Of a stretch of DNA of 28,583 bases, positions 1 to 23,062 are shown in pieces. The position numbers were made by a program, and so were the translations under genes. The first letter of the stretch is position 1. Each line of letters opens with the position of its first letter. The stretch spans positions 1 to 28,583 of the IMG/VR virus record IMGVR_UViG_3300028925_010946; one strand, 5' to 3'. The notes beneath the pieces are model-generated. The model worked only from the letters and a program-made list of their open reading frames with translations, ran no database searches and was not told the origin of the DNA. The stretch comes from a virus.

Positions 1-1035
1 ATACTTACCTTCTACAAAGTATCCTAAATTCTTATTCATCTTTATGCCATATATTAAGCCCGCTGAACAATCATACCATTGTTCTCCATTATTATACTTG
101 TGGTAAGAAAACTCACTAGCATCATCATAATGATATGGCATTAAATTTCCCCAAGCATGTAGCCATCTACTTTTTGTATACTTATAATAATCAAACCCTA
201 CTACCACTGAATGTTGTATTGTATTTTTTAATTCATCTCTTTTTCTCTCTGTATAGTCTGCTAAAACCTGTGGTATAACTACTTCTTTCCAAACTTCTGA
301 ACTAGTTGCTACTACATTTCCATTAGGATCAGTATATTCATTCGCATATAAATCATAACTATATCCCTCTTCTATAGCTAAATGCGTATAATGTAAGCTA
401 CCATTATCTAGCATCCATTCATCTAAAGCATTGTATCCATAAGGTTCTGATAACCTATGTGCAAGTCCTATACTAAGAGCAAAGTTCTTATTTTTTTTAA
501 TTCTGTATTTTTCTGAGAGTTCAAAATATTCTATATCCGCAAATCCATTTTTTAAATACTCTACTTTTGCAGCAAACTCATTCATACATAATTTACCAAC
601 ACAATCATCATCAGAACTATATCTAATGAAATGATGTTGATCAATATAATCTACTCCCTGTTGTCTAGAATAATCCATTTCAAATAGATACTCAAAACCT
701 TGAACTTTACCTACAGTAGCATTATCTGACCAAGACTCTTCTGTTCCATCGTAAAATGTATTAGCCTTATTCTCATATCCAAATCTAGCTATTTTTCTAA
801 TACCAATAGTCACAGAATAGTCGTAAGGAGTCTCAATAACTGAGGTCTCTAGACCGTTATTGACAGAATAAACTTCTACGTCTGAGATAGAAGTACCTCC
901 ATTAACTGCTCCATAAACAGTAGAAAACTTTAAATGCTTCTTAAGATCAAATTTCAAATCTGATATATCTCTTAAAGTAATTTGAGCCTCAACAATAGTT
1001 GAGAGACATATAAATATAACTATTAGTTTTTTCAT
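1..1035 (-). CDS. Secreted, probable outer-membrane beta-barrel protein (3' end beyond window)
   Basis: Reading the minus strand from an ATG at 1035 gives 345 codons with no stop up to base 1, so the C-terminus lies outside the window. The N-terminus, MKKLIVIFICLSTIVEAQ, is a clear Sec signal peptide. The mature part alternates aromatic/hydrophobic and polar residues in short strands, such as YDYSVTIGIRKIARF, FEYLFEMDY, FALSIGLAHRL and SVVVGFDYYK. It ends at the window edge with LGYFVEGKY. That pattern is typical of outer-membrane beta-barrels or barrel-like Bacteroidota envelope proteins. The start overlaps the stop of the upstream gene as TAATG, so the two are probably translationally coupled. 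I do not recognise a family. The barrel assignment is inferred from strand pattern and signal peptide; a secreted beta-sandwich is the alternative. The place to test it is the missing C-terminus, where barrels usually end in an aromatic residue. Confidence 0.8.
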   Translation of the reverse strand, partial: MKKLIVIFICLSTIVEAQITLRDISDLKFDLKKHLKFSTVYGAVNGGTSISDVEVYSVNNGLETSVIETPYDYSVTIGIRKIARFGYENKANTFYDGTEESWSDNATVGKVQGFEYLFEMDYSRQQGVDYIDQHHFIRYSSDDDCVGKLCMNEFAAKVEYLKNGFADIEYFELSEKYRIKKNKNFALSIGLAHRLSEPYGYNALDEWMLDNGSLHYTHLAIEEGYSYDLYANEYTDPNGNVVATSSEVWKEVVIPQVLADYTERKRDELKNTIQHSVVVGFDYYKYTKSRWLHAWGNLMPYHYDDASEFSYHKYNNGEQWYDCSAGLIYGIKMNKNLGYFVEGKY

Positions 1036-3573: not shown

Positions 3574-3854
3574 TATCTATTATAAAGCTTATCCTCTATT
3601 CTTTCTAGGGTTTTCTTCATCTCATCTACATCTTTTTTTGTCTCCATAATAGTAGCCCGTATCATTTGGTCTTTCATATCAAATTCCATTCTTGTGACTT
3701 CTGGATCTGGAGCAGCTGGTAATGTTTTTGCTTCTGCAATATCGGCTTGTAGCATGAACCACATACTGATAACAGTGGCCATAGCAGCTCCAATACCTGT
3801 TAATGTTTTGATGCTTACTTTAAATCCACTATCTTCAGTTAGTTCTTTAGTCAT
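3573..3854 (-). CDS. Small single-TM coiled-coil protein (holin/spanin-like candidate)
   Basis: The 93-aa product has a short polar N-terminus and one hydrophobic segment at residues about 15-36 (including GIGAAMATVISMWFMLQ). A Pro/Ala linker (LPAAPDPE) follows, then a strongly charged C-terminal helix with heptad character (residues about 55-93, ending MKKTLERIEDKLYNR). One transmembrane segment plus a coiled coil suits a holin, an inner-membrane spanin component or a membrane-anchored assembly factor. No sequence motif decides among these. It lies two bases after the upstream gene and overlaps the thioredoxin-fold gene as TAATG. The lysis role is inferred only from size and topology. Confidence 0.75.
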   Translation of the reverse strand: MTKELTEDSGFKVSIKTLTGIGAAMATVISMWFMLQADIAEAKTLPAAPDPEVTRMEFDMKDQMIRATIMETKKDVDEMKKTLERIEDKLYNR

Positions 3855-4417: not shown

Positions 4418-4430
4418 TTTTTATTTTTTA
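4418..4430 (-). promoter_or_regulatory. A-rich translation leader, copy 1 (TAAAAAATAAAAA)
   Basis: The minus strand reads TAAAAAATAAAAA directly before the ATG at 4417. The first three bases are the stop codon of the upstream adhesin gene. No Shine-Dalgarno sequence is present. A-rich leaders of this kind are known to drive initiation in Bacteroidota. The identical 13-mer occurs at 27257-27269. Confidence 0.55.
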
Positions 4431-7400
4431 ATTTCTGTGACTACCTTTTGTTGCTTTATAATTTCTCGTTACTTCTGCTTGGGTTAATACGTCATCATAT
4501 ATTAACACGCCGTCTATTGCTCCTTCAAAAGAAGCTGTATGACCAAATCCTATAGTAAGCGGTACGCTAGCTGACTCATCCATAAAAAGCCCATCAGTTG
4601 CATTGGTAGTTGTACCACCACCAGTTACACCATCAAGATAAAGTTTTATATTACCGTCTCCATCTCCCGCATCAGTGGTTGCGACTATGTGATACCAAGT
4701 ATTTAGAGAAAGTGCGCCCGTTATGGCTTCTTTTAAAGTACCATTTTTTTCTACTTGTAATTTAAGTCTTTCACTTCCATCAAACCCAACTCTCCAACCA
4801 TCTGTAGCATCGTTTCTATTGATCACCCACTCACCACTACTTACATTGTTTTTCTTTACCCAACAAGATATAGAAAAAGCATTATCTTCACCAATAAATG
4901 CTAAATCATCATCAGCGGTTCCACCAGCTGTTGTAACAGGTATATCTACGTAATCGTCAGTACCAACTGTTAAATTCAAACAACTAGTATTCTTCTCTCT
5001 ATTCATTATAAATCCTTGCGAATCTCTTGAGCTATCGATTCCTTGTGGGATTAATAGGGTTTCGGTTACACTTGTTGGTGTACCATCATGGGTTCCTGGG
5101 TCGTTAAGATTTACCCAAGTACTCAAGCCATTATTCCTCCAATAACCTTTTATATTAGCAGCTGCAGAGTGTGTTAAAGCATCTAGAGCTTTTCCGTCAT
5201 TATATAATTCATTCACTTCTGCTTGAGATAATTCATCTGCCCATATAGACGTTTCTGTTATAGCGCCGTTAGCGTATGAAGTTGCTCTTTCGTTAGATCC
5301 AATACGAATTCCCGCTGTTTTATTTTCCATAGCAGTATAAGAACCACTACTATTATCTACATTATCTACCAATACTCCGTTTATATAAAGATTGATTCCC
5401 GCATCTGCATCGGCTTGATTGCCACTATATGTAGCTACAACATGTAACCACTCTCCTTCCCGAGAAGTAATAGCTGTATTATAAGATCTACCTTGATAGG
5501 CATCGGTACTATCATCCCAAAGCATAAAAGTAAGCGTATCACCACCCGTGGTTCTAAGTTGCCATTCTCTTTGGTCAGCACTATCTTTACAAATAACAGG
5601 AAATGTAGTTGCATCATTCATATATATCCAAGCGGATATACTCATAGCGCTATCAGTAGTGGCATTACCAAAACTAAAATCATTATGATCTGCAATCGCA
5701 ACATAATCCGCTAATCCATCAAACCAAGCCAACTCATTATACGATTGCAACGCTGTTTGCGGTATATGTAATTGTTGATCTGCATCTGTCCAGCCTGAGG
5801 CTACACCTACTTCTTTAATACTAATATTATCAACGTAAAAATAATTGTTATTTACAGCAATAAATCCACCCGATCCATCAGGTTTAAAACCTAAAATTTG
5901 AATGTTTGCTATATCATCATCAGTAAACGTTACTGATATTTTAGTCCAAGTATTTGTAGCATCAGTTGTGTTTGATGCTACCGTGGTACCACTGTTGTTT
6001 TGTGCTTTTATTTCTAATCTCGACATGGTTTGAGAAGCAGGTAGATAAACAAAACAAGAAGCTTCATATGTACGTCCAGCTATAAGACCCATATCACTAC
6101 CATCAACGAACCTTAAAGCTGGAAAGCTAGAACTACTATCTGCTGTTACTTTTATAGACTTACTTCCACCCGATGCTTGTTCCGTACTGTCGTCCATTGT
6201 AGCATCAGCAACACTCATTGGTTCATTACCTATTTGTATCGTTGTTGGATCTGTAACTTCACAATCTCCATTAGTAACCAACTCATCCCCATGAAATACA
6301 GTTGTTGCGTGATGTTTGTCGTTTATAGCTTTTACCGAGACGTTGTCTACGTTTAATTTTGTTGACGAGGTGCCTGCTGATAGTACTACCTCAGTATAAT
6401 CCGCGTCTGCAACCCCTGTAAATTGGAAGGTGCCATTAGCACCCATCGTCTGAGTTGTGTTGTTATGAGGCATTCTAAAGTAAACAAAGCCAGAAACAAA
6501 GTCTGATATTGTGGCTGTAACTATATAACTAACCCCGCTCTTAATAGATTGGGGGGAGTTTGTTAACCTTGTGTAAACACTCGGATTATCAAACCTACCC
6601 TTCCCATTGCTAACGGTTATATTAGCGTGGTTAGTTGTCCAGCTTGATGCGCCGTCAAAATCTCCATTAGCAACCATCTCAGAGCTCAACCCACTATTAG
6701 CTCCATCTAAAATATAAGATTGTTGGCCTCTATGACCATCTTGCATTGGATACCATAGTTTAAGATTGGATTCAGTTAAAGCTGTACCACTACCGCTTAT
6801 AGCTGTTTCTTCTGGATTTAAGTAATCGAATGTTACGTCTGCTTGTGTGAATGCTTTATCCCATAATTGGAAGTCAGACATCATGCCATTGTAATATGCA
6901 CCGCCATCATGAGCATTATAGCCTATTTCCAAAGTGTTTGTTGAGAGGGATCCTAGGTGGTTGTTGCCGCTAGTACCAGTTTGTAAAATACCATTTATAT
7001 ATAATTTTATATTTGAGTCATCACAAGTGCAAACTATCCTATACCAAGTATTTATATTTATTGTCCCTGAGGCATGTACATAAGATCCATTATAAATAGT
7101 GTGTGATATTGCGCCTGAAGCACCAAGAAGCAAACCCATCCTACTAAGACCACTAACGCCACTGGGATGAATAGACCAAGCGGTGCTTCTAGGGCTGCCA
7201 GAAGAAACAACGGGAAACGCGGGGATATTTATCCACCCAGCCATAGTAACCTGCTTAGCTACAAGTACATCTGGATAATCTGTTGATACGCTTGTGCTTG
7301 CGGTTAATTTATCTCCAACCCCATCAAACTCTAGCGCACGTCCAGAATATATTTGACCGTGATTGTTGTTTGAGAAAAACTCGACTTCATGTAGTTCTAT

Positions 7401-7883
7401 GTTGTCTATTTCTAATGTCTCGCCAGTATCGTGATTTAGCCAAAGGAATAGAACGTCTCCAGATCCAGTACCTGTATCCGTTCTTACTTGTAATATTACT
7501 TCATGATATCCAACTGTACTGATTAGAGCTGTTGTGTTTTCAAATATTCCAGTAGATGGAGAAAAACCACCTGTATTAAGAACTATACTATCGGAATTAG
7601 CAACTATTTGATATTTTAAACGCACCATTTTACCAGCCATAGAATCCGCGGCCCACAGATCAGCCGCTGTCTTAAGTGATTGGTTTTCCCCGTCGGTTGT
7701 AATCACACATTTATTACTGTCACTACCATCTATTGTGATACCTCCACCAAATGCAGTCCAATTAGCGTCAGTAGTGAAAGTTCCGTTTATAATGTAATTA
7801 CCACTTATATCTTGCCGTCCGCTAGACGTATCTCTAGCTCTAGCTAATTTTGGTAACTCTATATGTTGTATTGTTGTTGCCAT
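4428..7883 (-). CDS. LamG/CBM modular adhesin, probable receptor-binding or fibre protein
   Basis: The 1151-aa product is a chain of beta-sandwich modules. Residues about 28-168 look like a CBM4/9-type jelly roll (NGTFTTDANWTAF ... LEIDNIELHEV). Residues about 180-350 are a LamG/concanavalin-like domain (ALEFDGVGDKL, NTWYRIVCTCDDSNIKLYING). Two more jelly rolls follow at about 405-520 (NGDFDGASSW ... LNVDNVSVK) and 535-695 (NGDCEVTD ... FYVDNISIK). LamG copies lie at about 718-890 (AWFDGLADYV, LYINGVLVD) and 970-1140 (VDIPVTT, IKLYLDGV). LamG and CBM modules bind glycans, so host polysaccharide or lipopolysaccharide recognition is the expected role. It overlaps the shorter paralog upstream as TAATG. 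No enzymatic motif was seen. Alternative: a decoration or head-fibre protein. Confidence 0.93.
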   Translation of the reverse strand: MATTIQHIELPKLARARDTSSGRQDISGNYIINGTFTTDANWTAFGGGITIDGSDSNKCVITTDGENQSLKTAADLWAADSMAGKMVRLKYQIVANSDSIVLNTGGFSPSTGIFENTTALISTVGYHEVILQVRTDTGTGSGDVLFLWLNHDTGETLEIDNIELHEVEFFSNNNHGQIYSGRALEFDGVGDKLTASTSVSTDYPDVLVAKQVTMAGWINIPAFPVVSSGSPRSTAWSIHPSGVSGLSRMGLLLGASGAISHTIYNGSYVHASGTININTWYRIVCTCDDSNIKLYINGILQTGTSGNNHLGSLSTNTLEIGYNAHDGGAYYNGMMSDFQLWDKAFTQADVTFDYLNPEETAISGSGTALTESNLKLWYPMQDGHRGQQSYILDGANSGLSSEMVANGDFDGASSWTTNHANITVSNGKGRFDNPSVYTRLTNSPQSIKSGVSYIVTATISDFVSGFVYFRMPHNNTTQTMGANGTFQFTGVADADYTEVVLSAGTSSTKLNVDNVSVKAINDKHHATTVFHGDELVTNGDCEVTDPTTIQIGNEPMSVADATMDDSTEQASGGSKSIKVTADSSSSFPALRFVDGSDMGLIAGRTYEASCFVYLPASQTMSRLEIKAQNNSGTTVASNTTDATNTWTKISVTFTDDDIANIQILGFKPDGSGGFIAVNNNYFYVDNISIKEVGVASGWTDADQQLHIPQTALQSYNELAWFDGLADYVAIADHNDFSFGNATTDSAMSISAWIYMNDATTFPVICKDSADQREWQLRTTGGDTLTFMLWDDSTDAYQGRSYNTAITSREGEWLHVVATYSGNQADADAGINLYINGVLVDNVDNSSGSYTAMENKTAGIRIGSNERATSYANGAITETSIWADELSQAEVNELYNDGKALDALTHSAAANIKGYWRNNGLSTWVNLNDPGTHDGTPTSVTETLLIPQGIDSSRDSQGFIMNREKNTSCLNLTVGTDDYVDIPVTTAGGTADDDLAFIGEDNAFSISCWVKKNNVSSGEWVINRNDATDGWRVGFDGSERLKLQVEKNGTLKEAITGALSLNTWYHIVATTDAGDGDGNIKLYLDGVTGGGTTTNATDGLFMDESASVPLTIGFGHTASFEGAIDGVLIYDDVLTQAEVTRNYKATKGSHRN

Positions 7884-9049
7884 TATGATAAAGTTCCTGT
7901 GTTACCGTTAATTTTTTGTATTGTTATGTTATCTATTGTGACTGTGAAAGTTGCTCCTGAAGTATTTTTACCTCTTATATTAAAAGTTTCTCCATCACTA
8001 CTAATAGCCGATCTAAAAAAAACTTCATAACTACCGCTTCCAGTCGCGTGGGTAATAGTGGCATAGTTACCACTATTATTAGCAAATCCCGATGAGCCAA
8101 TGTAGAGCTCTCCAGAACCAGCATCGAAGGTAACATCTAAACTAACTTTATACCAAGTGCCCTGCGTTAAAGATGCAGTTGTTTCTCTTATATCTTGATT
8201 ATTTGTAGTACCACTTAGTGTTGCAATTCCATTGTCTACAACCCAGTCCGCTGAGGTTGTCCAATTAGTACCAGCTGTATTAGCTGCTGTATCAACATTA
8301 AATACACCATCTACAGTTTGATCATTGGAAAGTGCCGTGCTACCACCATAATGATTATCGTAAACATATCCACTTCCACCTACATAGGTTTCAGCAGGGT
8401 TATCTAAATTCCACCATGAAACTAAATCTGTTTTCTCGCTATTAGATAAACCTGCATAATCTTTTTGCATTATTGATTTGACTTGAGGTTGGGATAGTAC
8501 CTTTCCACTCCACAACCCTACGTTACATATATATCCAGAGAAATACCTTGAGCCTTGATAACTCCCTATCGTGCCAGTTCTAAGAGAAGTATCTGGAACA
8601 GAATCAGACACCGTTGTAGATTCTATAAATACACCATCCGCATATACCTTTATAATACTATCATCACCACTCACTTCCAGTGTTGCAGCTATATGTCTCC
8701 AGTTGTTTAGCGCGGTAGGGGTATCCCCGTCACCAGTATCGTCGGAGACATCCGCCCAAACAGTCACCTCTGTAGCGGTGGTCATTTCAACCATAACATC
8801 TCCAAACCTCAAAATCGCACCTCGTTGATTTGCCGTCATGTAAACCCAAGCGGTAATAGATTTATGTCCAATTATTCCAGGTCGAGATTCTAAATTTATA
8901 AAGTCATTAGTACCGTCGAAAAATGCAGCTCCAGAACTAACGGGTTGCACTGGGGCTACTCTATAGTCATGCTTTAATACTAAGCCATCAGTTACAATAG
9001 ACGTACCTACCTTAGAAATACTAGTTATATTTGAGCCTAAGCCTAACAT
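7883..9049 (-). CDS. Short LamG/CBM adhesin, paralog of the downstream fibre gene
   Basis: The 388-aa product has one LamG domain at residues about 40-200 (AAFFDGTNDFINL, SITAWVYM, LNNWRHIAATLE, IKVYADGVFIE, FSGYICNVGLW). A CBM4/9-like jelly roll follows at about 245-383 (TNWTTSADWVVDNGIA ... FTVTIDNITIQKI). The same LamG-then-jelly-roll order occurs in the 1151-aa neighbour, which points to module duplication. The N-terminal 38 residues, which resemble nothing else in the window, may attach it to the virion. The start overlaps the upstream stop as TAATG and is preceded by GGAGAG, one of the few Shine-Dalgarno-like strings here. Likely role: receptor binding or bridging to the larger fibre. 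Confidence 0.9.
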   Translation of the reverse strand: MLGLGSNITSISKVGTSIVTDGLVLKHDYRVAPVQPVSSGAAFFDGTNDFINLESRPGIIGHKSITAWVYMTANQRGAILRFGDVMVEMTTATEVTVWADVSDDTGDGDTPTALNNWRHIAATLEVSGDDSIIKVYADGVFIESTTVSDSVPDTSLRTGTIGSYQGSRYFSGYICNVGLWSGKVLSQPQVKSIMQKDYAGLSNSEKTDLVSWWNLDNPAETYVGGSGYVYDNHYGGSTALSNDQTVDGVFNVDTAANTAGTNWTTSADWVVDNGIATLSGTTNNQDIRETTASLTQGTWYKVSLDVTFDAGSGELYIGSSGFANNSGNYATITHATGSGSYEVFFRSAISSDGETFNIRGKNTSGATFTVTIDNITIQKINGNTGTLS

Positions 9050-9467: not shown

Positions 9468-9480
9468 TTATCTTATTAAA
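9452..9480 (-). promoter_or_regulatory. Candidate Bacteroidota-type promoter
   Basis: On the minus strand, 9459-9452 reads TATATTTG, an exact match to the Bacteroidota -7 consensus TAnnTTTG. Upstream, TTTA at 9480-9477 lies 17 bases away; it is a weak and slightly close match to the -33 TTTG element. The box is about 47 bases before the ATG at 9405, in the only real gap of the window. It would drive the structural/adhesin block and the exported-protein genes beyond. Because the region is so A/T-rich, a chance match is possible. Confidence 0.5.
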
Positions 9481-12400
9481 GAGCTTGTTTCTTTTTTACC
9501 TTTAGGTCCTTGATAGAAAGCGTTTAACACATCTTTTCTAATTTCTGCCAAAGGAGCTATACCAGTTAAAAATGTTTTAGTAGCTTGTGATGTTCCTGAC
9601 TCTCCATAAGCGCCTGTACGTTGAACTTTATCTCCTCTAACAGCTTCACTAATTACTTTTGTTGAATTTTTAAGTGTGCTATAAGAAGATGGCACTAGAG
9701 TATAATTAGCAAATCTATTCATATCTGTAGTTACAAATACATCATGAGAAAACTTCTTTAATCTCCTTAGAGTTCCTTGGTCTGATTCATCATCATCTTC
9801 CATTATAGCTATAAGACTAAGTAAAGTAACGCCTATTCCTATACCTCTAATATGATTAATGATTTCTTCTTTTCTTTGTTTGCTTGACTCATTAAATATA
9901 TCCATAATATTCTTTTTTGTCATTTCACCAGCAAAATACTTTCTAAATATTCCTACTACAAATTCACCAGAAGCCCTATAACTACCAACATTAACCTCTC
10001 CAAATCTATTAATATCTTCAGCTTTAATTCTATCTTGTATTAATGTAATAAACCATTTCTTAAATTGTAATAGAGCTTTACCATAAGAGTACATAGAAAG
10101 CATACTAGCATCTAATGCAGAATACCCCTCACCATGTAGAGTGGATATCTTATGATTAATATACATAACTCTTTTGTCTGTTATAGGAGTTGTGCCAGCA
10201 TACTCTTCATTTGTAAGCATTCCTAAGAAAGCCGAACCTTGTATATATCCCTCAGACGCATCCATAAACACATAAGACCATCTCTCTATTGTACCATAAA
10301 GACCTTTCTTTTCAGACAGGTGAATAAATTCATCAAAACTGTATTCTATAATTCTATGTTCTTTAAGGATAGCTTGAGATTTAAAATAATCTTTCCAATA
10401 TCTCGTTTCACCTTTTATAAATTGAGCGCCTCCTCTCTTACGTAGTTCCTGGTATTTACCTGCTAGTATATTACCTACACCAACACCCATATTAAAACCA
10501 AGTAATCTTAAAGAGGTAAGCCTTACAAATCCATTTATAACTTTATCTCCTGTTTTACCAAAGATACCCTCTTGTGTTTTCTTCTCTAAGAAGCCTTCCT
10601 TCCACCACTTAGTTAAATACTGTACAGCATTCTTATTGTCTATACCTTTATTAAATCCTATAATAGAGTCTGTAAGTATAGCTAATTTACCCATACCAGC
10701 AAATCCATCTTTCTCTCCATGCATAAATAATGAGCTTCTAACAAACTCTAGTAAAGAACTATTAATATCATAAGTCATGTTCTGAGCTCTCATGCCTTGT
10801 CTTCTCTCATACTCTTGTATTAACTCAGCATCAATATCACTTACACCTTCATCGCCAATCATTCTCTTGATCATAGCTCCGTTATTAACTAAAGCATCAT
10901 ACTCTACATCAGAAAGCATAATATCACTACCATCATGATGTTTACCTTTAGCTTTTTGTTGCTTAGCTATCTTTCTTAATTTATCTAATTCATATATCTG
11001 TTTACCAGAAGCTAGTGTAATCTTAGAGGTTCTTCCTTTATATACTTCGTACTTCCATTCATAGAAAGTCTTTAATACTGTATCTCCATTCTTATCCGTT
11101 CCTCTTACTTTAACTCTATCATAATCATAAGAATCAATTGTAGAATCGTATAAGCTAAATAATCCACTTCTAGAAATACTCTCTAAGTCTCCCATTTGAG
11201 TTCCTGGGATTGAAGGATCTTGAACATTAAGAAGGTCAGTTGCTACTTGCTTGTAAGCTCTATAATAGTTAATCTCTTCTTCTGTGAGGCTCTTTTCTAA
11301 TATCTCTTGTTCTGTAAGTAATCTAACAGTACCATTTGATACAGTAGCTATATTACCGTATATGTATTGGTATCTTGCATTGGCATCAAATCCTTTTCTA
11401 ACTCTCTCTAGAACAGTAAGGCTTTTTAATTTAGATCTTACTAAAGCTTTATTAGCTCCTTCTACAATATTTTTGTATTTAGTGAATGATCTAAGGTATT
11501 GTCTATACTGTTCTTGAGCTTCGTTTATTAAATACTGTATCTCAGGTCTTTTAGATGTCATATCATTAGAACCTAACCATGCTCTGAAGTTAGATAGGTC
11601 TTCTTGTTCTACGCCATTCTCTCCTGGAACATTGTATTCGTATCCTTGTTTAGCTCCAGCTTTTCTTAACTTCTCTGATTGTAGTTTAAATGCTCTTTGT
11701 CCTATCTCCTTCTCTATAGTATAAGCAATCCCTTTAGTAGCTGAATTATCCATAGCTCTAAACTTAACAGCTATATTATAAAGAGATTCTATGTTGTATT
11801 TAGATAAAGGTTTCTTTTCTAATTTAGATTCAAACTCTCTAACTATTTTAAGTTGCTCTCTATATGATGAATACTTATTTCTTAAGATTGTATAAGTCTC
11901 AGATTCAGGTGACACTTTAGATAGATTAATTCCTTTATCAGCAGCCCAAGTATCGAATGATAATGTTCTTACTCCATCTCCTATGTAATCATTATTGTAA
12001 GAAGTCTCAGATGATATTATCTTTTTAGCTTTTTTAGTAGGATCTATAAAAGAGTTCTTTTGTTTAGCTGCTTTATCTATCTTATCTAAGACTGTAAAGT
12101 TGTTACCTTTATTTTTAAAGTTGCTTATAGCATCAGTAAATTCAGTGGATAGTCCACCTACATCATTAGGTTCTTTAGTTTGATTATCTTGTATTATTGT
12201 AGATATCTCTTTGTTTATATTATTTAAATAATCATTATCAAAGAAAGGGGTGAATGAACCAGCAGAACCAGCACCTCCAGTAAATCCAAAGCCATTGAAC
12301 TCAGCCTCTAATTCAAATATAAAGTTTTTATCTTGTTCTGTTAATTCAGCAAAAGATTCTTTTATTTGTTCTATAGCTTTATAAGAAGTAAACTCTGTTA

Positions 12401-15400
12401 TCTCGGCTCTATTAATAACTACTATATTACCATCCTTACTAGGAATAACATCTAGAACTCTATTTAAGAACTTATTTGATTTATTACGACCTTGCAGTAG
12501 TTTAAACTCTTCTATTAGTGTAGGCCTGTCTTTAATTAGATTTAAAAAGCTTATATTTTGCTTTAAGTTATCTATGATTATCTGATTAATAATTTTATTC
12601 TTAGTATCTTTATTCTCATTCAGCGTTTCTGTAGCAGTCTCATTAATAATCTTCTGCATATAAGGAGTATACCTTATATCTGTCTTTGTAGCTCTCTCTA
12701 AAACACTGTCAAATAAAGACATTGCATGCTGTACTATATTATTATTTCTACTCTTACCTAGTGAGTATGATAAATTTAACCCTCCTGATCTTTCTTTTGG
12801 ATTAATCAATACAGGACCTTCTTGTATTCTTCTAATATCATCTCTTATCGTTCTTAACTCTAAAGGATTCTTCTCTATAGTCTGGTGAACAGTGAACGCT
12901 TTTGAGAATGGTCTTACTACGTCTTGATTAAATTTACTTAAACCATATAACATTAGTATGGCGTCTATCTCTGAACCTTTATGTTTTTTAGATAATTTAT
13001 CTATATCTAACTCTATGCCTGATTCTATTCTGTCAGCGAGTTTCTGCCAAGCTCTTTCATTATAAGCTCCTTTTATTTCACCTGTATCTATAGCCCTATA
13101 TTGTTTAGTTAATCCTTTTACCCCTTGTTTTTTTAAAAACATAACAAGCTCATTAAAGTTTACATCCTGATCTTCATTGAACATATCATTAATATCACTA
13201 TCTTTAGATATATAATTCTTAGACCTACTTCTTTTAAACTCCATATATTCCTTTACTATAGGAGAGTTAAACAGAACAGATAGGTCTGTTAAAGAATATC
13301 CTAGTCTTCTAAGTAGTACATAAGGAAATACACTTTGCATATCCATTCCTAGCTTACTAGCAAATTGCCACTTAGCGTTATCTAAAGCAACATTAAGTAA
13401 TTGAGCGACACCAAACCAGTTACCTACACCTCCTTCTAAACTAGAGTCATCAAAGAATCTAGAATTAGTTACAGATTTACCCCCTCTCTTAAGTGTTATA
13501 TCAAATGGTAATCTTTCCTTACTGTTAGAGAGTATATTAAAGGTTCTTTGTAATGCAGCTATTATACCAACTAAGTTTTTTGCTGGTACATTATCCTCAA
13601 ACATCTGTGCATCTCCCATAGGCGTTAGCTGAGACTCTTCACTGCCCTCTGGCTTACCATATATACTATCTGATTCATTAATAGCGTTCTTAGTATCTTG
13701 TACAAAGTCTATATCGGCTTTAATTTCTTTCTGTCTTTTCTCTTGACTAATTAATTGAATGTATTTATCAAAGAACTCGTTAGACCATCCTCTCCATTCT
13801 TTCTTATTTACTTCTTCTTGAGTCCACTTAAAATTCATATGTATTGAATCCCCATCTAAATCAGCACCCCAATTCTTACTAACATGTGCAGGTATAGTAA
13901 TATTAGATGTAGGAGAATCTCCTATCTGATCATGGAAGTCTTTAACTACAAATGCAGAACTAGATACTTTTCCGTGAGCTGGTACTCTTGTACCTATAAA
14001 TAGATCACCTACTTTAATACCTTGTTTCTTTAGGTATCCAGGAACAATAGCTTCTGAAGCAACTACATTTTCATCTCCTTTAAATAATCCTTTTTTATAT
14101 GATTGTAATCCCATACCTAAACTAGCAGATTGGTAAGCGATAGAACCTTTAGTATACATCTTAGTTCCTTTATGTGTAATACGTCCTGTGGCTATAGAGT
14201 TATGCACAGCATTTACAAAAGGATATCTAGGATCTATATTATTATATATAGAATCTACAAGAACACCAAAGACATCTGCACTTACAGAAGACTTAAAAGC
14301 ATCTCTCTCATTTAACACAGTTTTTTCTGTTGCTGTATCATTCATAATAAGGTCTTGATTCCTTCCAGCGTTATTAGCCTCCATTACTTTTTTTCTCAAA
14401 GCAAACATCTCGTCTACTATAACTTGCTCTTCTTTTGTTTCTATATTAGTAGCTAAATTATAGAATAACTGAGAAGGGAAGAATCTCTCACTAGTTTCTT
14501 TATCTAACTCTAATTGTATACCAAATCCTTCTCCAGATAAACCTCTATATCCGTTCTCATTTGTATATATCTCATCTTGCTTAGACATAATATGATCTAT
14601 GTTTTCAGATGAAGTTATATCATATATATGCTCTTCAGTTCTAACACCATCTAAGAATAGTTTAGCAGCAGACTCTGAAGCAGCAATTACAAGATTACCA
14701 GGAGTTCCTGATTTTTCTTTAACTTGTGCTTGTCGTTTCCTAAGTACATCTCCTATATTTTTAAGGTAAGGACTTGTAGATTCTAACTTAGGAGTTAATG
14801 TATGTATAGCAAATTTTAAGTAAGTTGTCTTACCTTTTAATTTACCTTCTGTTTCTGTGTAGTGATATACAAACTTAAATACATTACCTACTTTCTGTAC
14901 TTCACCATACTTAGCTCTTACAAACTTAGCTTGCTCAGGAAGTATATACCCCATTGCATCATTTTCTATAGCAGTGCCTTCATTCTCTTCTGTACCTATA
15001 TTACCTTCTTCGTCTACAAAATAGTCTTTTATAATAATAGGTTCTATTGTAGTGTTTCTATCAAATACAATATGACTAGCTATTGATCCAGCAGCACGTT
15101 TGATATAGTCAACTTGATTTTTAGACTGTCTATGGTCATGAACAAATAATTGCTGAGCCATAAACTTATTAGCTATGTAAGATGTTAAGAATGCATCTAA
15201 AGCAGCATCAATATTACCTGTATTCTTTAAGTCTTGATTATTTTGGTATAATTCATTATTCTTTTTTATGTAACGCTTAAAGTCTCTTACAAGCTTTGGC
15301 ATTTCTACAATCTTATTATTTTCAATAGTAAAAGGAAATATCTTGTCTCCATTTTGATACTTAGCATTATATGCAGGGTTATTCTTAACCTTAGATAATA

Positions 15401-18400
15401 ATAGTTTTTTGCTTTTAGTGTCGTGAGCTACAATACTCTCTACATAATACCTTCTGCTTTTATCAGAGAATACAGCAATAGCTTGATCATATATAATAGT
15501 ATTGTCTTTATTTTCTATACCAGTGTTATATTGAGATAAGAAGCTAAAGAAGTCTCCTGCTATAAGCTCATTAGGAGTGACGTTATTTAACTTAGATGCT
15601 CTACCTTCATACTTAACACCTTCAGCTTTAATTATTAATGCTCTCATCATACCAGAGTGAATACTAAAGTTAAATGGATTGTTATTTACCTTACCATCAC
15701 TACCTGTTAGCATACCTCTAGATTTCTTATTATGTAGTATATCAGAGTATATGTTATTATTAGGATGCATAACATCATTCTTATCTATGATTGTTTCATC
15801 ATTGATTATATTAGCTACATTTTTAGCTCTATTATGTAATCCATTCTCTTTATTAAATACACTTACACCGTCACCTTCTACATTATCTACCATAGATAAG
15901 TAATTCATTGCTCTAGAAGCAACAAGACCTTCAGTTAGTATAAACTTTAATTCTCCTTGCTTACCATGTACTAAACCAGCAGCTTTATATTTACCTACTT
16001 GCATAGAGAATCCTTTATCTTTAGTCATACCTATTAAAGATTGGTGCTTTAGGTTAGGCTTACCATTCTTATAATTAGTGTGGTCAAATAATACATTCCA
16101 TAGGAACTGTCTTTTACCATCAAATAGTATCTCTGTCTGTAATAATGCTTGTTTGTTAATTAGAGCTCCTTTTGGATTGGTATCTAATAATACATCTAGT
16201 ATTTTATGAGCAGCACTATATCTATCTCTTTTACTATTAGGATCCTTCTTGTAAAACAACTCATTATAAATGTCTGCTATTTCTTTACCTTTTGAAGCAT
16301 TATCTTTAACTTCATTCATAACATCTCTAACCACACTAGCTTCTAATGTCTTGCTAGTAGTTTTATATTTCTTCCATTTTCTAGCCCCATCATATCCTAT
16401 CTCTAAAGCTTGGTGAGTTAGAACCTCTATATTAATTCCTTCTATAGGTCCTTTTAATTCCATCAACTTAGCATTGGTAAGAACTTTGTCTTTAGCATAT
16501 ACTTTATCTAATACACTTAACATAGCCATTATTTCATTACTATCTGATTTTCTTAAAGCAGGTATGAAATTATAAGGATCATACATTGTTGTTTTAGATA
16601 GAACGTATAAGTCATATAATAACTTCTTTCTATTAATAACATTTTCAGGGTTCTTATGGTTGTATAATTCTGTTATCTTTTTAATGAAGTTAGCTGTAGT
16701 GGTTGGTAATGCAATTACTTTACTACTCTCATTATGTTTACTCATTTCATCTCCAGCTTCAGAGTCTTCAGAAATATCTTCTTTTTCTCTAAAGTCTAAT
16801 CCTATCTTAGAAAGCTCTTGATCTAATACTTCGTCAGCTAATTTTAAATCTTGAGGTCTAGTTAATTGTACTATAACAGCCTTAACATATTCTCTTAATT
16901 GTTTTATGTCAGCTACTTTTAAACTAGAATCCTTTGCAATACTCTTCATTACCTTACTAGTGATTTGCGCTGGAGTTAAATTAAGTCCTATAAAGTCACC
17001 TACATAAGTTGATACTGCTGCGTATGTAGATCTTGAATCGTATGCTTTCTTATTAGCCCTCTTAATATCTCCATAGGCAGAGTTCTGTACTACAGGGACA
17101 GTTCTTTCTCCAGAATTAAAGTCCAGTAATATATGTTTAATAGAAGCTTCTAGATCTAAACTCTGTATGTTGTCTACAGATAAGTCTAATAACATTTTAG
17201 CTTCTTCTTCTGTAGCTAAATCCTTAGATTTCTTGTAAAATTCTATTAAGTCTTTCTCTAACATCTTTTGAGCCGCTGATCCTTTTACTACAGCATCTAC
17301 TGTACCATAAGAGAATGCTTCTAATGTTCTTGTGAATGTTTCTTCAAGTAAGTGTTTCTGTTGATCTACTCTAACATCTGTAACTCCTTGTGCTTTTAAC
17401 TGTATTCTTAAGTTATTGAATAATTCAGTACTTCTAGTGCTATCACCAGCTTGTTCTGCTAATGCAATGTTTTCAGATATACTTATTAAATCACTAGTAG
17501 AATCCATACTATTCTCTAATATGTTTCTGTATATATGACCAAGAGTTGTTTTAAACCCCTTGTAATTCATTAAAGTTAATTCAGGATACTCTTCTCTTGT
17601 TTTTTGATATAAAGAAGATTTAGGTAATAGTTTTTTAATCCTTTTCATTAATGGGGTGTCTTCCATTAAGACGTAGTAAATATGTCCTACTTCATGAATC
17701 AGATCTGTTTGAGCTACTTGATTTTCATTAATCAATACAACAGAACCTATAGCTAGAGATGTAGCTTCTTGACCAAAATCATCCATAAGTCTTCCTTGAA
17801 CTGCATATCCTCTTGCTCCTGGGAATTGTTTCTGAACAATTGATCTTATTAATGCAGAAGCTCCAAGTCCTGAATCAGAGTATACTTCAAGATTACGATT
17901 TATAAATACATTATCTTGTTCTGGAATATTCTTAAAGGATTTACTAAGTAGCTTTTTAAAGTTTTCTTTAGTCTGCTTTATGTTACCTATAATTTTGTCT
18001 ATAGTACGAACATCTTTCTTCTTAGCTTTTTTAGTAGCCTCTTTATTATCGTAAGATGCTTGCTCTAGTTGACCTACAACCTCTCCGTTAATAACAACAT
18101 CTATCTTGCTTTCGTATAATTTACCTCCGTTTATATATTGGAAGTAAAGCTTACCCTCAACTTCTACAACATTAGCTTGTCCAGCTATAGGTTCTACTAA
18201 GCTAAGCTTAACATTTACATTTTCTTTTGTGAAATCTTCTGCACCTAAAGCTTTATAAGCAAAGAATTTGATAGTCTTACTACCAGCCTTTATCATATAA
18301 CTATAGGCGTTAGCGCTTACTCCTTGAACTTTAGATATAGTAGCAGCGAAACTAGGTATTCCTTTGTCTTTTAGAGCGTCTTCAGTGTCTTTATACTGCT

Positions 18401-21038
18401 GACTTTTAGTAACTACTTCGGATTTATCTTTTTTTTTTACCGCTTCCTTATTAATAACTTCTCCATCTCCAGCAACAACATTTTTAATAATTTCTTCGTT
18501 AGTTAAGGTATTATCTTTGTTAAATGTTTCTGTTTGATATCTATTTTCAAATTTAGCTTCTCCAAGAAAATAAGATACTTCCCTACTCCCATCAGAAAGT
18601 TTTTTTACTGTAATAGTTACAGCTTCACCGTCATCATTTTTAGTAGTATAGGTATCTTTTTCTTTTGTTTTAGATTCTTTTTCTACAGCCTTCTCTACAT
18701 CTTTATTATTGATAATCTTATCTATACCAGTGCCAATAATCTCTTTAGCTTTCTTAGCTAGTATCTTTCCAGACTCTAATGCTTGAATTAGTTTAGCTTT
18801 AGCTCCAGAAGTTATCTTACTCTTATCATAATCCTTAACTTCTTTTATAGCTTTCTTAACCTCTTCAGATGTAGCTTTTTCTTTTGTCTTACTTACTAAT
18901 CCTTTAGCTCCCTCTATAGCTTTCCCTCCTAATTCCTTAGCACCTTTAATTACTTTTGATATTAAAGATGGATCCTCTACCTTATCTTTCTTAGCAGCTT
19001 CAGATTCTTTTTGAGAATATTCCGTCATCTCTTCTTTGGTAAGACCTTGTTTTTTAAACCTACTATCTCTTTGTCCAGTAGATTTAGCAATAGGAGCTTT
19101 ATCAACTCTTAATGTGTATATATCTTCTATCTCTGTTTCTATAGTTACTTGCTCATCTTTTAGGACTTGCATTATAGCTTCGTGATTCGCTTTAGTTATC
19201 TCCAGTGCTTCTTTTTGTTTTTCAGGATTCTTTATATTCTCTTTGATTACTTCAGTGTCATTATTATATGAAGCCTCTTGTAGTGATTGATTCTTCCCAT
19301 TTCTAGACTTTCTAGTCTCTCTAAAGAAAGCTTGTTTAGCACCTGCTTCAGTTAATAGACTATTAACAGTGTGTTTCTCATAGTTCTTTTCTGATTCTTC
19401 TATTGCTTGTATATATTCATCAGCAGTTTCTTGAGACATTTTATTATCCTTAACCATGTTATTCACATACTCTATAACTACAGAACCATCTCCACTATAA
19501 TTCCAAATATTAGCAGATATTATATTATCCTGTACTTGTTGCTCCGCTACATATTGTTGGTCTGGAGTTTTAGCATTATCTAATAACTCAGCATTTATTT
19601 TCAATGCATTATGATTGTCAGTTAAAGCTTTTGATCTCTCAGCGCTAGCGTCAAAATAACCTCTAGCTCCACCCATAGAAGATCCTAATCCTACAGAAGA
19701 CCAAAATATATCTCTTATTTCTGGCTTATAATTTCCATACTCATCTTTAACCCAGTCAGTCATAGCCTCATACTCTTCACCTTTAGCTTCTTGTATGTTA
19801 GCATATTTAATCCATTCTTGATATGTTTCTTGTATACCTTCAGTTACACCCTCTATACCTGCATAAGCTGCAGTTGCAGGAAGTTTAGGTAATACACCTC
19901 TTGCTGTCCATGCGGTTAATCCTTTTATACTCGCCTTAAATGGAGTTGTTTTTAATGGGTTCACTAATAACCTTCTTGCCATTGTTTTACCTATACCACC
20001 AAATAGAAGTCCATATTGAACCATATCTACCCCCATCCATTTTGCATTATCAGTCATAACACCAGCAGCATGATCAGCAGCCTCATTAGGAGTAAATAAT
20101 TTATTTCCTTGTTCATCTACCTCTCCTAACATTTGGGAATAAGCTTCTCCAGAGAGATATGCACCTTCAGCTAAATTGGCTCCAGCACCACCACCAATAA
20201 ACCCTCCTGTATTTCTCATGAATTTTGATGTTAGTATTCCTTTCTTACCTCCATCAACAGCTAACTTACCTAAAATGCCTGAGCCTTTAATTCCATTACC
20301 GCCCATACCTATACCCCTTCCCATAGCTCCTACAGGTACACCTATCTTTTTAACCTTATTTGCTTTAGATATTGCTTTAGCAGAGTACACTCCAAATCTA
20401 CCAAGTAAAGCTCCTCCAAGTTTAGCTCCACCAGCATAAGGTATCATAAAAGATGCAGCATAAGGAACTAGTCTTGAAATCTTAGATGACCAGAACTCGC
20501 CTTTAAACATATCTTCAAATGTAACATCCTTTAATCCTTCTGAGAGAACTAATAGGTTCTCATTCTGATATTCTGTTCCTACTTTTTGAAAGTATTCACC
20601 AACAGATGTTGATGGTTCAGGATCTCCTGGTCTTGCCCATGCATTTATAAAGTCTACAGTTTCACCAGTTCCATATAATAAATCACCCCAACCTGCTTTA
20701 AGTCCTCTAGCAACTCTTGTAGCTGTAGAACCTATCATTGCGTTAGGATCCATTATCTCTTGATTAGGTGTAGATCCGTAGTTTAGTTCATCTAATTTAC
20801 CATATTCATCAGAAGCTATTTGTCCTGCTGCTTGTCCTCTAGCGTATCTATCAAGCGTAACATTTTCTGCATTAGAATTTGCCATTCCTTGAACCATATT
20901 ACCAAGTGTAGATGGTCCTTCTGGTTCGTTATCATACTGCTTTATAGCCTGCTCAGGCGTAGGTACTTGTACTTGCTCAGCATTACCTAAATCTTTTAGC
21001 AAGATATTAAGTCCTGATGTGTAATCATCTTCTCCCAT
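9468..21038 (-). CDS. Giant virion protein: zincin protease plus two-barrel RNA polymerase-like domain
   Basis: This 3856-aa protein is the largest in the window. Residues about 188-300 are hydrophobic and Gly-rich (YAASFMIPYAGGAKLGGALLG) and could contact or cross a membrane. Residues about 650-770 are Lys/Glu-rich. HEVGH at 1115-1119 is a zincin zinc site; LEETFTRTLEAF near 1232 may supply the third ligand. DLDGD at 2393-2397, in the context RVPAHGK...ITIP...NWGADLDGDSIHMNF, matches the Mg-binding loop of the beta-prime-like double-psi barrel. Upstream lysines K2075 (LKFAIHTLTP) and K2126 (ESAAKLF) could be the partner-barrel lysines. LNVALDNAK near 2547 resembles a motif following DxDxD in related phage giants. 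A hydrophobic helix lies at about 3731-3747. By analogy with crAss-like phages it is a virion RNAP that enters with the DNA and transcribes early genes. The start overlaps the upstream stop as TAATG. The RNAP call rests on motifs. Confidence 0.95.
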   Translation of the reverse strand: MGEDDYTSGLNILLKDLGNAEQVQVPTPEQAIKQYDNEPEGPSTLGNMVQGMANSNAENVTLDRYARGQAAGQIASDEYGKLDELNYGSTPNQEIMDPNAMIGSTATRVARGLKAGWGDLLYGTGETVDFINAWARPGDPEPSTSVGEYFQKVGTEYQNENLLVLSEGLKDVTFEDMFKGEFWSSKISRLVPYAASFMIPYAGGAKLGGALLGRFGVYSAKAISKANKVKKIGVPVGAMGRGIGMGGNGIKGSGILGKLAVDGGKKGILTSKFMRNTGGFIGGGAGANLAEGAYLSGEAYSQMLGEVDEQGNKLFTPNEAADHAAGVMTDNAKWMGVDMVQYGLLFGGIGKTMARRLLVNPLKTTPFKASIKGLTAWTARGVLPKLPATAAYAGIEGVTEGIQETYQEWIKYANIQEAKGEEYEAMTDWVKDEYGNYKPEIRDIFWSSVGLGSSMGGARGYFDASAERSKALTDNHNALKINAELLDNAKTPDQQYVAEQQVQDNIISANIWNYSGDGSVVIEYVNNMVKDNKMSQETADEYIQAIEESEKNYEKHTVNSLLTEAGAKQAFFRETRKSRNGKNQSLQEASYNNDTEVIKENIKNPEKQKEALEITKANHEAIMQVLKDEQVTIETEIEDIYTLRVDKAPIAKSTGQRDSRFKKQGLTKEEMTEYSQKESEAAKKDKVEDPSLISKVIKGAKELGGKAIEGAKGLVSKTKEKATSEEVKKAIKEVKDYDKSKITSGAKAKLIQALESGKILAKKAKEIIGTGIDKIINNKDVEKAVEKESKTKEKDTYTTKNDDGEAVTITVKKLSDGSREVSYFLGEAKFENRYQTETFNKDNTLTNEEIIKNVVAGDGEVINKEAVKKKDKSEVVTKSQQYKDTEDALKDKGIPSFAATISKVQGVSANAYSYMIKAGSKTIKFFAYKALGAEDFTKENVNVKLSLVEPIAGQANVVEVEGKLYFQYINGGKLYESKIDVVINGEVVGQLEQASYDNKEATKKAKKKDVRTIDKIIGNIKQTKENFKKLLSKSFKNIPEQDNVFINRNLEVYSDSGLGASALIRSIVQKQFPGARGYAVQGRLMDDFGQEATSLAIGSVVLINENQVAQTDLIHEVGHIYYVLMEDTPLMKRIKKLLPKSSLYQKTREEYPELTLMNYKGFKTTLGHIYRNILENSMDSTSDLISISENIALAEQAGDSTRSTELFNNLRIQLKAQGVTDVRVDQQKHLLEETFTRTLEAFSYGTVDAVVKGSAAQKMLEKDLIEFYKKSKDLATEEEAKMLLDLSVDNIQSLDLEASIKHILLDFNSGERTVPVVQNSAYGDIKRANKKAYDSRSTYAAVSTYVGDFIGLNLTPAQITSKVMKSIAKDSSLKVADIKQLREYVKAVIVQLTRPQDLKLADEVLDQELSKIGLDFREKEDISEDSEAGDEMSKHNESSKVIALPTTTANFIKKITELYNHKNPENVINRKKLLYDLYVLSKTTMYDPYNFIPALRKSDSNEIMAMLSVLDKVYAKDKVLTNAKLMELKGPIEGINIEVLTHQALEIGYDGARKWKKYKTTSKTLEASVVRDVMNEVKDNASKGKEIADIYNELFYKKDPNSKRDRYSAAHKILDVLLDTNPKGALINKQALLQTEILFDGKRQFLWNVLFDHTNYKNGKPNLKHQSLIGMTKDKGFSMQVGKYKAAGLVHGKQGELKFILTEGLVASRAMNYLSMVDNVEGDGVSVFNKENGLHNRAKNVANIINDETIIDKNDVMHPNNNIYSDILHNKKSRGMLTGSDGKVNNNPFNFSIHSGMMRALIIKAEGVKYEGRASKLNNVTPNELIAGDFFSFLSQYNTGIENKDNTIIYDQAIAVFSDKSRRYYVESIVAHDTKSKKLLLSKVKNNPAYNAKYQNGDKIFPFTIENNKIVEMPKLVRDFKRYIKKNNELYQNNQDLKNTGNIDAALDAFLTSYIANKFMAQQLFVHDHRQSKNQVDYIKRAAGSIASHIVFDRNTTIEPIIIKDYFVDEEGNIGTEENEGTAIENDAMGYILPEQAKFVRAKYGEVQKVGNVFKFVYHYTETEGKLKGKTTYLKFAIHTLTPKLESTSPYLKNIGDVLRKRQAQVKEKSGTPGNLVIAASESAAKLFLDGVRTEEHIYDITSSENIDHIMSKQDEIYTNENGYRGLSGEGFGIQLELDKETSERFFPSQLFYNLATNIETKEEQVIVDEMFALRKKVMEANNAGRNQDLIMNDTATEKTVLNERDAFKSSVSADVFGVLVDSIYNNIDPRYPFVNAVHNSIATGRITHKGTKMYTKGSIAYQSASLGMGLQSYKKGLFKGDENVVASEAIVPGYLKKQGIKVGDLFIGTRVPAHGKVSSSAFVVKDFHDQIGDSPTSNITIPAHVSKNWGADLDGDSIHMNFKWTQEEVNKKEWRGWSNEFFDKYIQLISQEKRQKEIKADIDFVQDTKNAINESDSIYGKPEGSEESQLTPMGDAQMFEDNVPAKNLVGIIAALQRTFNILSNSKERLPFDITLKRGGKSVTNSRFFDDSSLEGGVGNWFGVAQLLNVALDNAKWQFASKLGMDMQSVFPYVLLRRLGYSLTDLSVLFNSPIVKEYMEFKRSRSKNYISKDSDINDMFNEDQDVNFNELVMFLKKQGVKGLTKQYRAIDTGEIKGAYNERAWQKLADRIESGIELDIDKLSKKHKGSEIDAILMLYGLSKFNQDVVRPFSKAFTVHQTIEKNPLELRTIRDDIRRIQEGPVLINPKERSGGLNLSYSLGKSRNNNIVQHAMSLFDSVLERATKTDIRYTPYMQKIINETATETLNENKDTKNKIINQIIIDNLKQNISFLNLIKDRPTLIEEFKLLQGRNKSNKFLNRVLDVIPSKDGNIVVINRAEITEFTSYKAIEQIKESFAELTEQDKNFIFELEAEFNGFGFTGGAGSAGSFTPFFDNDYLNNINKEISTIIQDNQTKEPNDVGGLSTEFTDAISNFKNKGNNFTVLDKIDKAAKQKNSFIDPTKKAKKIISSETSYNNDYIGDGVRTLSFDTWAADKGINLSKVSPESETYTILRNKYSSYREQLKIVREFESKLEKKPLSKYNIESLYNIAVKFRAMDNSATKGIAYTIEKEIGQRAFKLQSEKLRKAGAKQGYEYNVPGENGVEQEDLSNFRAWLGSNDMTSKRPEIQYLINEAQEQYRQYLRSFTKYKNIVEGANKALVRSKLKSLTVLERVRKGFDANARYQYIYGNIATVSNGTVRLLTEQEILEKSLTEEEINYYRAYKQVATDLLNVQDPSIPGTQMGDLESISRSGLFSLYDSTIDSYDYDRVKVRGTDKNGDTVLKTFYEWKYEVYKGRTSKITLASGKQIYELDKLRKIAKQQKAKGKHHDGSDIMLSDVEYDALVNNGAMIKRMIGDEGVSDIDAELIQEYERRQGMRAQNMTYDINSSLLEFVRSSLFMHGEKDGFAGMGKLAILTDSIIGFNKGIDNKNAVQYLTKWWKEGFLEKKTQEGIFGKTGDKVINGFVRLTSLRLLGFNMGVGVGNILAGKYQELRKRGGAQFIKGETRYWKDYFKSQAILKEHRIIEYSFDEFIHLSEKKGLYGTIERWSYVFMDASEGYIQGSAFLGMLTNEEYAGTTPITDKRVMYINHKISTLHGEGYSALDASMLSMYSYGKALLQFKKWFITLIQDRIKAEDINRFGEVNVGSYRASGEFVVGIFRKYFAGEMTKKNIMDIFNESSKQRKEEIINHIRGIGIGVTLLSLIAIMEDDDESDQGTLRRLKKFSHDVFVTTDMNRFANYTLVPSSYSTLKNSTKVISEAVRGDKVQRTGAYGESGTSQATKTFLTGIAPLAEIRKDVLNAFYQGPKGKKETSSLIR

Positions 21039-23062
21039 TATGAATTTTGATATTTAGATATAGTTTTACTTAGTGATCTACTTTTTTTGTATGTTTTTTC
21101 TGGCATTATAGATTGACTATATATATCATAATTACCCTCTTTGATTGCTTTTAACATATCTGCTACCTGTGGACTACCATTTATTAATCCTTTCTTTAAA
21201 ATTTGAGTTGAATAAGCCATATACTGAGAGCTGTTATTCGCCACCATATTCTCTCCTAATTTAATTGGATATTCTCTTTCTTGTATTGACTCAATATATA
21301 AGTCTGACATTAATAAAGGAATTGCTTGTTGTACCTTTCTAGATGGTACGTTAGCCATTCCTAGCCCAATAGAGAGTGATTGATCATATGCATTTACTAT
21401 TTGACCTACAGCAGCCTCATTAGGAAGTTGCATTTGTTTTTGTAGTATAGCTCCGTTAGCAATCTGTCGTTTATTGTTATATGTTTTTTGAGCTACTTGT
21501 TGTTCGTAGGTAGCCATTTGATTCTTAACTTGATTTAGATTCTCTGAATCCACCGATTCATTTATTAATCCCTGAATAGTAGCATCACCCATCTCTACTT
21601 TTTTATAATAAGCATCATCATGACTAACTAAATCATCATCTATAAGCTCAGCTACCATAACATAATCAAATACAGTATTTTTATACTGGTCTCTTAATTT
21701 AGCCAGGTCTTCTTTGTTTGATACATCTGTAAGTAAGAAAGAATTTCCATCCTCTCCTTTACCTTCTAAAGCGATATGATATCCTGTTAATCTTAAATCA
21801 TCTGTTTCGGATTCTTGCCATGATCCAGAACCTGTAATCCAGGTTGAGCCTATATCAGAATCTGTTATATTATGACCTCTAGAGTCATATAGTCCTTGCA
21901 TGTTAACGCCTTTTACTTGACGATCTTTTTGATCATATCTAGATGATTTAGATTCGTCTCCAAAGTCTCCAGCCCAAGTTTTTGTGATTGCACTTTCTAA
22001 GTTAGGGTTATTAGCAAATATTCTACCACTACCAACTAACTGTCTTCCTTTAGAGAATATTGCTTTAGAGCCTTTATAACTCTTCATCTCAGTATTCTTA
22101 TCATAACCACCTAATCTATCCCAATCTATAGCTGCTGTCCCATCAAATTGCTCTTTGAATGAACTTCCTGCATCTACTGTTCTAAAGTAATCACCACCTG
22201 TAGTAATACCTGTTTGTCCTACAGCGTCAAGAGATCTTATTATTTCTGTTGAGAATTGAGTATCTACTTCTTTTTGTCCATAAATACCTTTATCATTAAA
22301 GAATTGAGAGCTTTCATCATAGTTTAACTCTTTACTTACCCAGTTTCTAATATCTTCATGACTTAACCCCTGCATATATTCTTGTGCGTTTTCAGGATTT
22401 TGATCATTAATCATATCCTTAATAATAGCTTGATAGTTACCACCTATTACTTCATCTATATCTAATTGGTCTGCTTGAGTTAATACCTTACTAGCTTGAT
22501 CTAAATAATCAGACCTTCCTCCATTAAATATAAAGTTATCAGACTTACCTTCTACAAACTCGTTATATCTAGCCCTAGCTCCTCCTGTTAAGAATTGAGA
22601 GTTTTTATTATCTAATGCTAAAGAATGATATAGTTCTAGTGAAGCTTTATTTTTTTTAGTTCTTTGAGATACGGGGTTATCTTTTAAACCAGCCTTATAA
22701 TCTTCTAATAGATAATCTAAATTACCATAAAGTCTAGCGTTGTCTATACTTCCATGTTGTCTTAATACTTCTTGGATGCCATTCCATCCTGAATCACTAT
22801 TATGCCAATCAGTGAAGTCATCTACATCTTTCTTCCTAGCAAAATTATTAGTAGTATATATATCAGATAAAGCTTGTTGTGTAGCAGCATTTAATTGTTG
22901 TTGTTGTTGCTTTTGCCTATCTAATGATTGAAGTTCTTGTTGCTTTTGCTGTTGCTCAAACTGCATTTTTTGCATTGCTTGTGCATCACGATTAGCTTGT
23001 ATAGCCCCAGCCTCCTTCATAGGTCCAGTTAAAGCTTTAAAAAATCCGTAATCTACTCCCAT
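21038..23062 (-). CDS. Gln-rich internal virion (ejection) protein
   Basis: The 674-aa product begins with a helical, Gln-rich coiled coil (residues about 27-62, several QQQ runs) and continues as a long, mostly helical polar protein without signal peptide or membrane segment. It has charged, Asn-rich stretches and no enzyme motif that I recognise. The C-terminal 20 residues are basic and Ser-rich (EKTYKKSRSLSKTISKYQNS). It sits between the lysozyme-bearing protein and the RNAP giant, overlapping the giant's start as TAATG. Position, size and composition resemble internal core or ejection proteins of short-tailed phages such as the T7 gp15/gp16 set, though no homology can be claimed from reading alone. 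It could be packaged with the giant or act as its scaffold. Confidence 0.9.
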   Translation of the reverse strand: MGVDYGFFKALTGPMKEAGAIQANRDAQAMQKMQFEQQQKQQELQSLDRQKQQQQQLNAATQQALSDIYTTNNFARKKDVDDFTDWHNSDSGWNGIQEVLRQHGSIDNARLYGNLDYLLEDYKAGLKDNPVSQRTKKNKASLELYHSLALDNKNSQFLTGGARARYNEFVEGKSDNFIFNGGRSDYLDQASKVLTQADQLDIDEVIGGNYQAIIKDMINDQNPENAQEYMQGLSHEDIRNWVSKELNYDESSQFFNDKGIYGQKEVDTQFSTEIIRSLDAVGQTGITTGGDYFRTVDAGSSFKEQFDGTAAIDWDRLGGYDKNTEMKSYKGSKAIFSKGRQLVGSGRIFANNPNLESAITKTWAGDFGDESKSSRYDQKDRQVKGVNMQGLYDSRGHNITDSDIGSTWITGSGSWQESETDDLRLTGYHIALEGKGEDGNSFLLTDVSNKEDLAKLRDQYKNTVFDYVMVAELIDDDLVSHDDAYYKKVEMGDATIQGLINESVDSENLNQVKNQMATYEQQVAQKTYNNKRQIANGAILQKQMQLPNEAAVGQIVNAYDQSLSIGLGMANVPSRKVQQAIPLLMSDLYIESIQEREYPIKLGENMVANNSSQYMAYSTQILKKGLINGSPQVADMLKAIKEGNYDIYSQSIMPEKTYKKSRSLSKTISKYQNS

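Follow-up and report, generated by a model that had tools for sequence, protein, structure and literature searches.

The stretch of DNA analysed here (the window) is a 28.6-kb IMG/VR fragment of 28,583 nucleotides from an uncultured phage, in which the main genes all lie on the minus strand. Its edge cuts through a gene (27267–28583) encoding the C-terminal part of a muzzle protein, 44–50% identical to residues 1761–2287 of the muzzle proteins of relatives (Pfam crAss_MUZ, 3.7e-134). This gene is followed, on the same strand, by those for three large proteins of 669 aa (25244–27253), 724 aa (23068–25242), and 674 aa (21038–23062), and then by a 3856-aa ORF (9468–21038), along the length of which 16–30 relatives could be aligned and which carries an RNA polymerase (RNAP). 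The same order, from muzzle C terminus through three large proteins to RNAP, was found in complete relatives, in which the 674-aa protein, the immediate upstream neighbour of the RNAP, has homologues of 40–63% identity. It also agrees with the muzzle–cargo–RNAP order of crAss001, where the muzzle protein gp44 is followed by the cargo proteins gp45/gp46 and then by RNAP-associated proteins that were detected in virions (PMC10172136). The original prediction had placed the giant ORF next to ejection proteins. Its neighbours are indeed the muzzle C terminus and three proteins in the crAss cargo position, but the word 'ejection' is a label given by position, the functions of the 669-aa and 724-aa proteins being assigned by synteny.

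Residues ~276–545 of the 669-aa protein matched a separate gene of 380–610 aa located elsewhere in the relatives and resembling tape-measure proteins; the middle part of the protein thus appears to be a domain that was transferred between tail-related genes. We found no support for a reading of the 724-aa protein at 23068–25242 as a lysozyme. Of the remaining minus-strand genes, the one at 4428–7883 encodes a protein of 1151 aa, in which three stretches match Laminin_G_3 (E 2e-61) and another match is to CBM_4_9. Since no full counterpart of this gene or of its neighbour at 7883–9049 was found in the three complete relatives described below, the two occupy a variable slot, which is probably adhesion-related. 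A second 724-aa protein (1035–3209), secreted-looking and with homologues of 740–972 aa in the complete relatives, contains 13 copies of a GC[MTI]D..x..NY..LA..D.GSC repeat. Secreted proteins of marine Bacteroidota often contain repeats of this type, which is a hint at the host.

As the original prediction stated, the 3856-aa ORF contains the motif DLDGD at residues 2393–2397 (13848–13862, minus strand), in the context TRVPAHGKVSSSAFVVKDFHDQIGDSPTSNITIPAHVSKNWGADLDGD. It is the sole D-x-D-G-D of the ORF, and it is suggestive rather than decisive by itself, because 0.064 such motifs are expected by chance, given how long the protein is and how it is composed. Relatives were collected by scans of IMG/VR, with identities in the core ranging from 99% down to 34%. 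D[LM]DGD was kept in every relative covering the site, including those that are 34–39% identical in the core, and the fuller form G[AS]D[LM]DGD was present in every relative.

Comparison of the whole protein with Pfam, PHROG, and NCBIfam disclosed no RNAP family, and a phmmer search of PDB sequences disclosed no RNAP. Profiles built from the window clade only (A2, 6 sequences; A8, 29 sequences) also found no RNAP among PDB sequences and did not reach 6VR4, the virion RNAP of phi14:2. Because the window-clade HMM missed 6VR4 and the curated libraries gave no match, the relation to known RNAPs is very distant. The first lead was obtained by tblastn of residues 2100–3200 against 50,697 phage records, which gave 20 weak matches, all of them to crAss phages and several annotated as RNA polymerase. 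An early profile comparison of 16 relatives with three crAss RNAPs, including that of phi14:2, gave a probability of 96.3% (E 2e-9). With a profile of 30 relatives aligned by hhalign to 81 crAss-like RNAPs, the match extended over 616 columns (residues 1941–2604; 13227–15218, minus strand) with a probability of 99.8% and an E value of 2.5e-27, while control profiles (one reversed, ten column-shuffled) did not exceed 0.5% and the rest of the 3856-aa protein did not exceed 6%. The original prediction had staked itself on a profile match to some RNAP family, and the crAss RNAPs provided it.

The two halves of the core matched crAss profiles independently (residues 1940–2240 at 1.5e-11 and 2240–2620 at 4.5e-19), and masking of the motif block (residues 2345–2405) left a match of 99.5% (E 3.6e-22). 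One could have taken DLDGD for a coincidence in a giant ejection protein that has nothing to do with RNAPs, in keeping with the expected motif frequency and with the lack of a match in curated families. This reading, to which we give practically no credence, is refuted by the profile match, which persists with the motif masked, by the controls, and by the fold match to 6VR4 described below. A match of a mixed profile (A7) to 6VR4 at 1e-247 was set aside as evidence because A7 includes crAss RNAPs; its matches to calmodulin were noise. No relatives of the core were found in bacterial and archaeal genomes, and no convincing crAss homologue was found for residues 1–600, 1250–1950, and 2600–3100.

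Further evidence for a catalytic core was provided by a joint MAFFT alignment of 104 sequences (29 window-clade relatives and 75 crAss RNAPs), in which R2351, P2353, G2391, D2393, D2395, D2397, and D2553 were invariant. K2075 aligned with a lysine in 75 of 76 crAss RNAPs, corresponding to K1027 of phi14:2, and K2556, R2578, and G2580, like D2553, were common to the window protein and the crAss RNAPs. A parallel with the R.P..H stretch of the cellular enzyme, proposed originally, stood for the Arg and the Pro (R2351 and P2353), which extend to the crAss RNAPs, but not fully for the His, which is kept in the window clade and missing from the crAss enzymes. In every crAss RNAP of the comparison, the residues aligned with DLDGD read DFD[IV]D, a uniformity that is biased because the crAss set was partly chosen by this motif. 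The form GSDFD[IV]DK, which is usual in crAss RNAPs though not defining, was absent from the window clade. In a tree of the RNAP core, the window clade formed one group, separated from all 75 crAss enzymes by a stem of 1.7 changes per site. So long a stem could suggest that the barrel domain was kept as a structural or inactive remnant, for instance in a DNA-binding ejection protein; this is most improbable, as no relative departs from the catalytic triad, R2351, K2075, or D2553, and the motif is of the canonical DxDGD type.

We predicted the structure of residues 1935–2615 with AlphaFold2. A run with six close relatives only was poor (pLDDT 40), while the joint alignment gave a pLDDT of 88.8 and a pTM of 0.86. 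The best Foldseek match in the PDB was the phi14:2 virion RNAP 6VR4 (E 1.7e-17; TM 0.67 by query length), followed by QDE-1 (3.1e-7) and then by RDR2 and P23-45 gp96 (E 2.8e-3). The fold match confirms the homology described above but is partly tied to it, because 75 of the 104 rows of the folding alignment were crAss RNAPs. In the viral model library BFVD, 53 proteins matched at E ≤0.001, and the named ones were mostly crAss-like. A double-psi barrel had been expected around the motif. The model was strand-rich at ~2290–2410 (13809–14171, minus strand), with DLDGD in a loop surrounded by six strands (~2295–2304, 2326–2333, 2346–2352, 2360–2369, 2379–2381, and 2398–2403), which we assign, with the matches to 6VR4 and QDE-1, to the second (beta-prime-like, DPBB-A) barrel. 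Modelled strands and the conservation of K2075 place the first (beta-like, DPBB-B) barrel at ~2015–2130 (14649–14996, minus strand; limits approximate), so that two double-psi barrels are predicted within one chain. The LLNxALDNAK...RRLGYSL...NSPIVK block at ~2541–2604 (13227–13418, minus strand), which holds D2553, K2556, R2578, and G2580, is the probable bridge-helix region.

These data support the reading of the protein as a two-barrel RNAP of the crAss virion type. In all likelihood, the 3856-aa protein is packed as cargo, injected, and transcribes the first phage genes without the host RNAP, although its DNA-dependent activity, packaging, injection, and early-gene role are deduced from homology and gene order. 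Residues 1941–2604 would form the single-chain core, homologous to that of the phi14:2 enzyme, for which a virion role is cited (PMC7886860). The catalytic Mg would be bound by the three aspartates D2393, D2395, and D2397, with K2075 of the other barrel serving as the corresponding catalytic lysine. Packed into the particle, the protein would exit by way of the tail (portal, ring, and muzzle) along with the neighbouring cargo proteins, refold after arrival in the cell, and start transcription of the first genes on the incoming DNA. A genuine crAss-type RNAP could also be expressed early or in the middle of infection rather than delivered with the DNA, and the P23-45 study shows that related enzymes may or may not be virion components (PMC10770324). 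We consider this unlikely, since the gene lies in the late structural block, on the same strand and right after the muzzle and cargo-position genes; since the crAss001 proteins in a like position were detected in virions; and since the three complete genomes hold no DxDxD candidate apart from the polymerase ORF.

Besides the polymerase, the virion-type protein contains two other recognisable domains. A zincin-like domain (~1099–1240; 17319–17744, minus strand) was detected with a crAss zincin profile (1.4e-6); it carries HEVGH at residues 1115–1119 (17682–17696), of which H1115, E1116, and H1119 were invariant among the aligned relatives. The C-terminal domain (~3640–3840; 9519–10121, minus strand), which includes a hydrophobic stretch at 3725–3748, is homologous to the C terminus of a separate crAss protein adjacent to the RNAP (hmmsearch i-E from 1.3e-9 to 1e-4, about 18 loci; phi14:2 gp076 is among the proteins matched). 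In crAss loci with a recognisable zincin, this is mostly located in that same separate protein, downstream of the RNAP. The downstream ORFs of two loci (L154, L155) match the zincin profile but have no HExxH, and the proteins are apparently inactive versions. Fusions as such are not new, because an N-terminal zincin and RNAP share one ORF in L113 and L143/L148, and one ORF fuses RNAP with the downstream protein in L147. The three-part chain of zincin, RNAP core, and C-terminal domain, in that order, was restricted, among the loci examined, to the window clade. It is conceivable, though we would not bet on it, that the transcription block of crAss phages was merged into one injected polyprotein and that the zincin on the N-terminal side cleaves the chain after entry, freeing the active polymerase.

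To place the phage, we used three complete relatives (G001, G002, and G004; loci L036–L047) of 67.2, 65.9, and 65.0 kb, whose ends overlap by 129/130, 99/100, and 59/59 bases, respectively. The set of crAss structural and packaging genes was scanned in the 65.9-kb genome, G002, the window holding the muzzle end alone. G002 matched Crass_capsid (PF23898, 1.5e-37), CrAss_Ring_2 (PF25702, 2.9e-7), and crAss_MUZ (PF25731, 3.7e-134), and the best matches of its portal and TerL were crAss phages. Its other genes include those for a DnaB helicase, Rad52, and a DnaA-C-like protein; a non-exhaustive scan of the G002 ORFs disclosed no DNA polymerase. The TerL tree, midpoint-rooted for drawing only, put the window clade outside Suoliviridae and Steigviridae, and the terminases of Pachyviridae and Elemovirus (L170, L172, L174) joined the window lineage across a long branch. 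The complete relatives (65.0–67.2 kb) are smaller than the named Crassvirales listed, which have ~90 kb or more, a size that is usual but not defining. Gene content indicates that the phage is crAss-like, and its lineage is a deep one that probably falls outside the Crassvirales sampled.

The closest known system is that of phi14:2, whose virion RNAP (gp66 of Drobysheva et al. 2021; KC821624 gp077) is also a single-chain two-barrel enzyme encoded in the structural gene block. It is collinear with the window core over the 616 columns and shares its catalytic residues, but the identity is about 14–17%, its motif is DFDID instead of DLDGD, the 2180-aa RNAP and its neighbour gp076 are separate proteins instead of one 3856-aa ORF, and the genome is 100 kb, against about 65 kb in the window lineage. 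In crAss001, the RNAP-associated cargo follows the muzzle and cargo genes as in the window and the protein next to the RNAP in this type of phage is matched by the window C-terminal domain, but three separate proteins (gp47, gp49, and gp50) correspond to one chain. P23-45 gp96 (PDB 8H2M) likewise has a two-barrel RNAP inside a giant virion protein with a metallopeptidase domain; it differs by its weaker fold match, by being a siphovirus tape measure, and by belonging to another RNAP subgroup. The RNAi polymerases QDE-1 and RDR2, the next best fold matches, are cellular and smaller. The N4-type virion RNAP resembles the window protein as a giant injected polymerase, but it has a T7-like single-subunit fold.

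The original prediction described early transcription by an injected RNAP as a strategy of few phage groups. It was already demonstrated in phi14:2, and since the phage of the window is itself crAss-like, the strategy is not newly found here. A transcription block with a DxDxD protein has been described for every crAss-like group but epsilon (PMC7886860), and giant-protein virion RNAP fusions have been noted in crAss-like, N4-like, and P23-45 phages (PMC10770324). The window protein is therefore a deep branch of a known kind of enzyme. What distinguishes it from the crAss enzymes compared is its canonical DxDGD and the presence of zincin, core, and the neighbour's C-terminal domain in one ORF. 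The finding widens the range of crAss-type virion RNAPs to small phages (about 65 kb) of a deep lineage, which go unrecognised in ordinary sequence searches. It offers, in the DxDGD loop versus the DFD[IV]D loop of crAss RNAPs, a natural comparison of active sites, and it joins in one chain domains for which other crAss-like phages mostly have separate genes.
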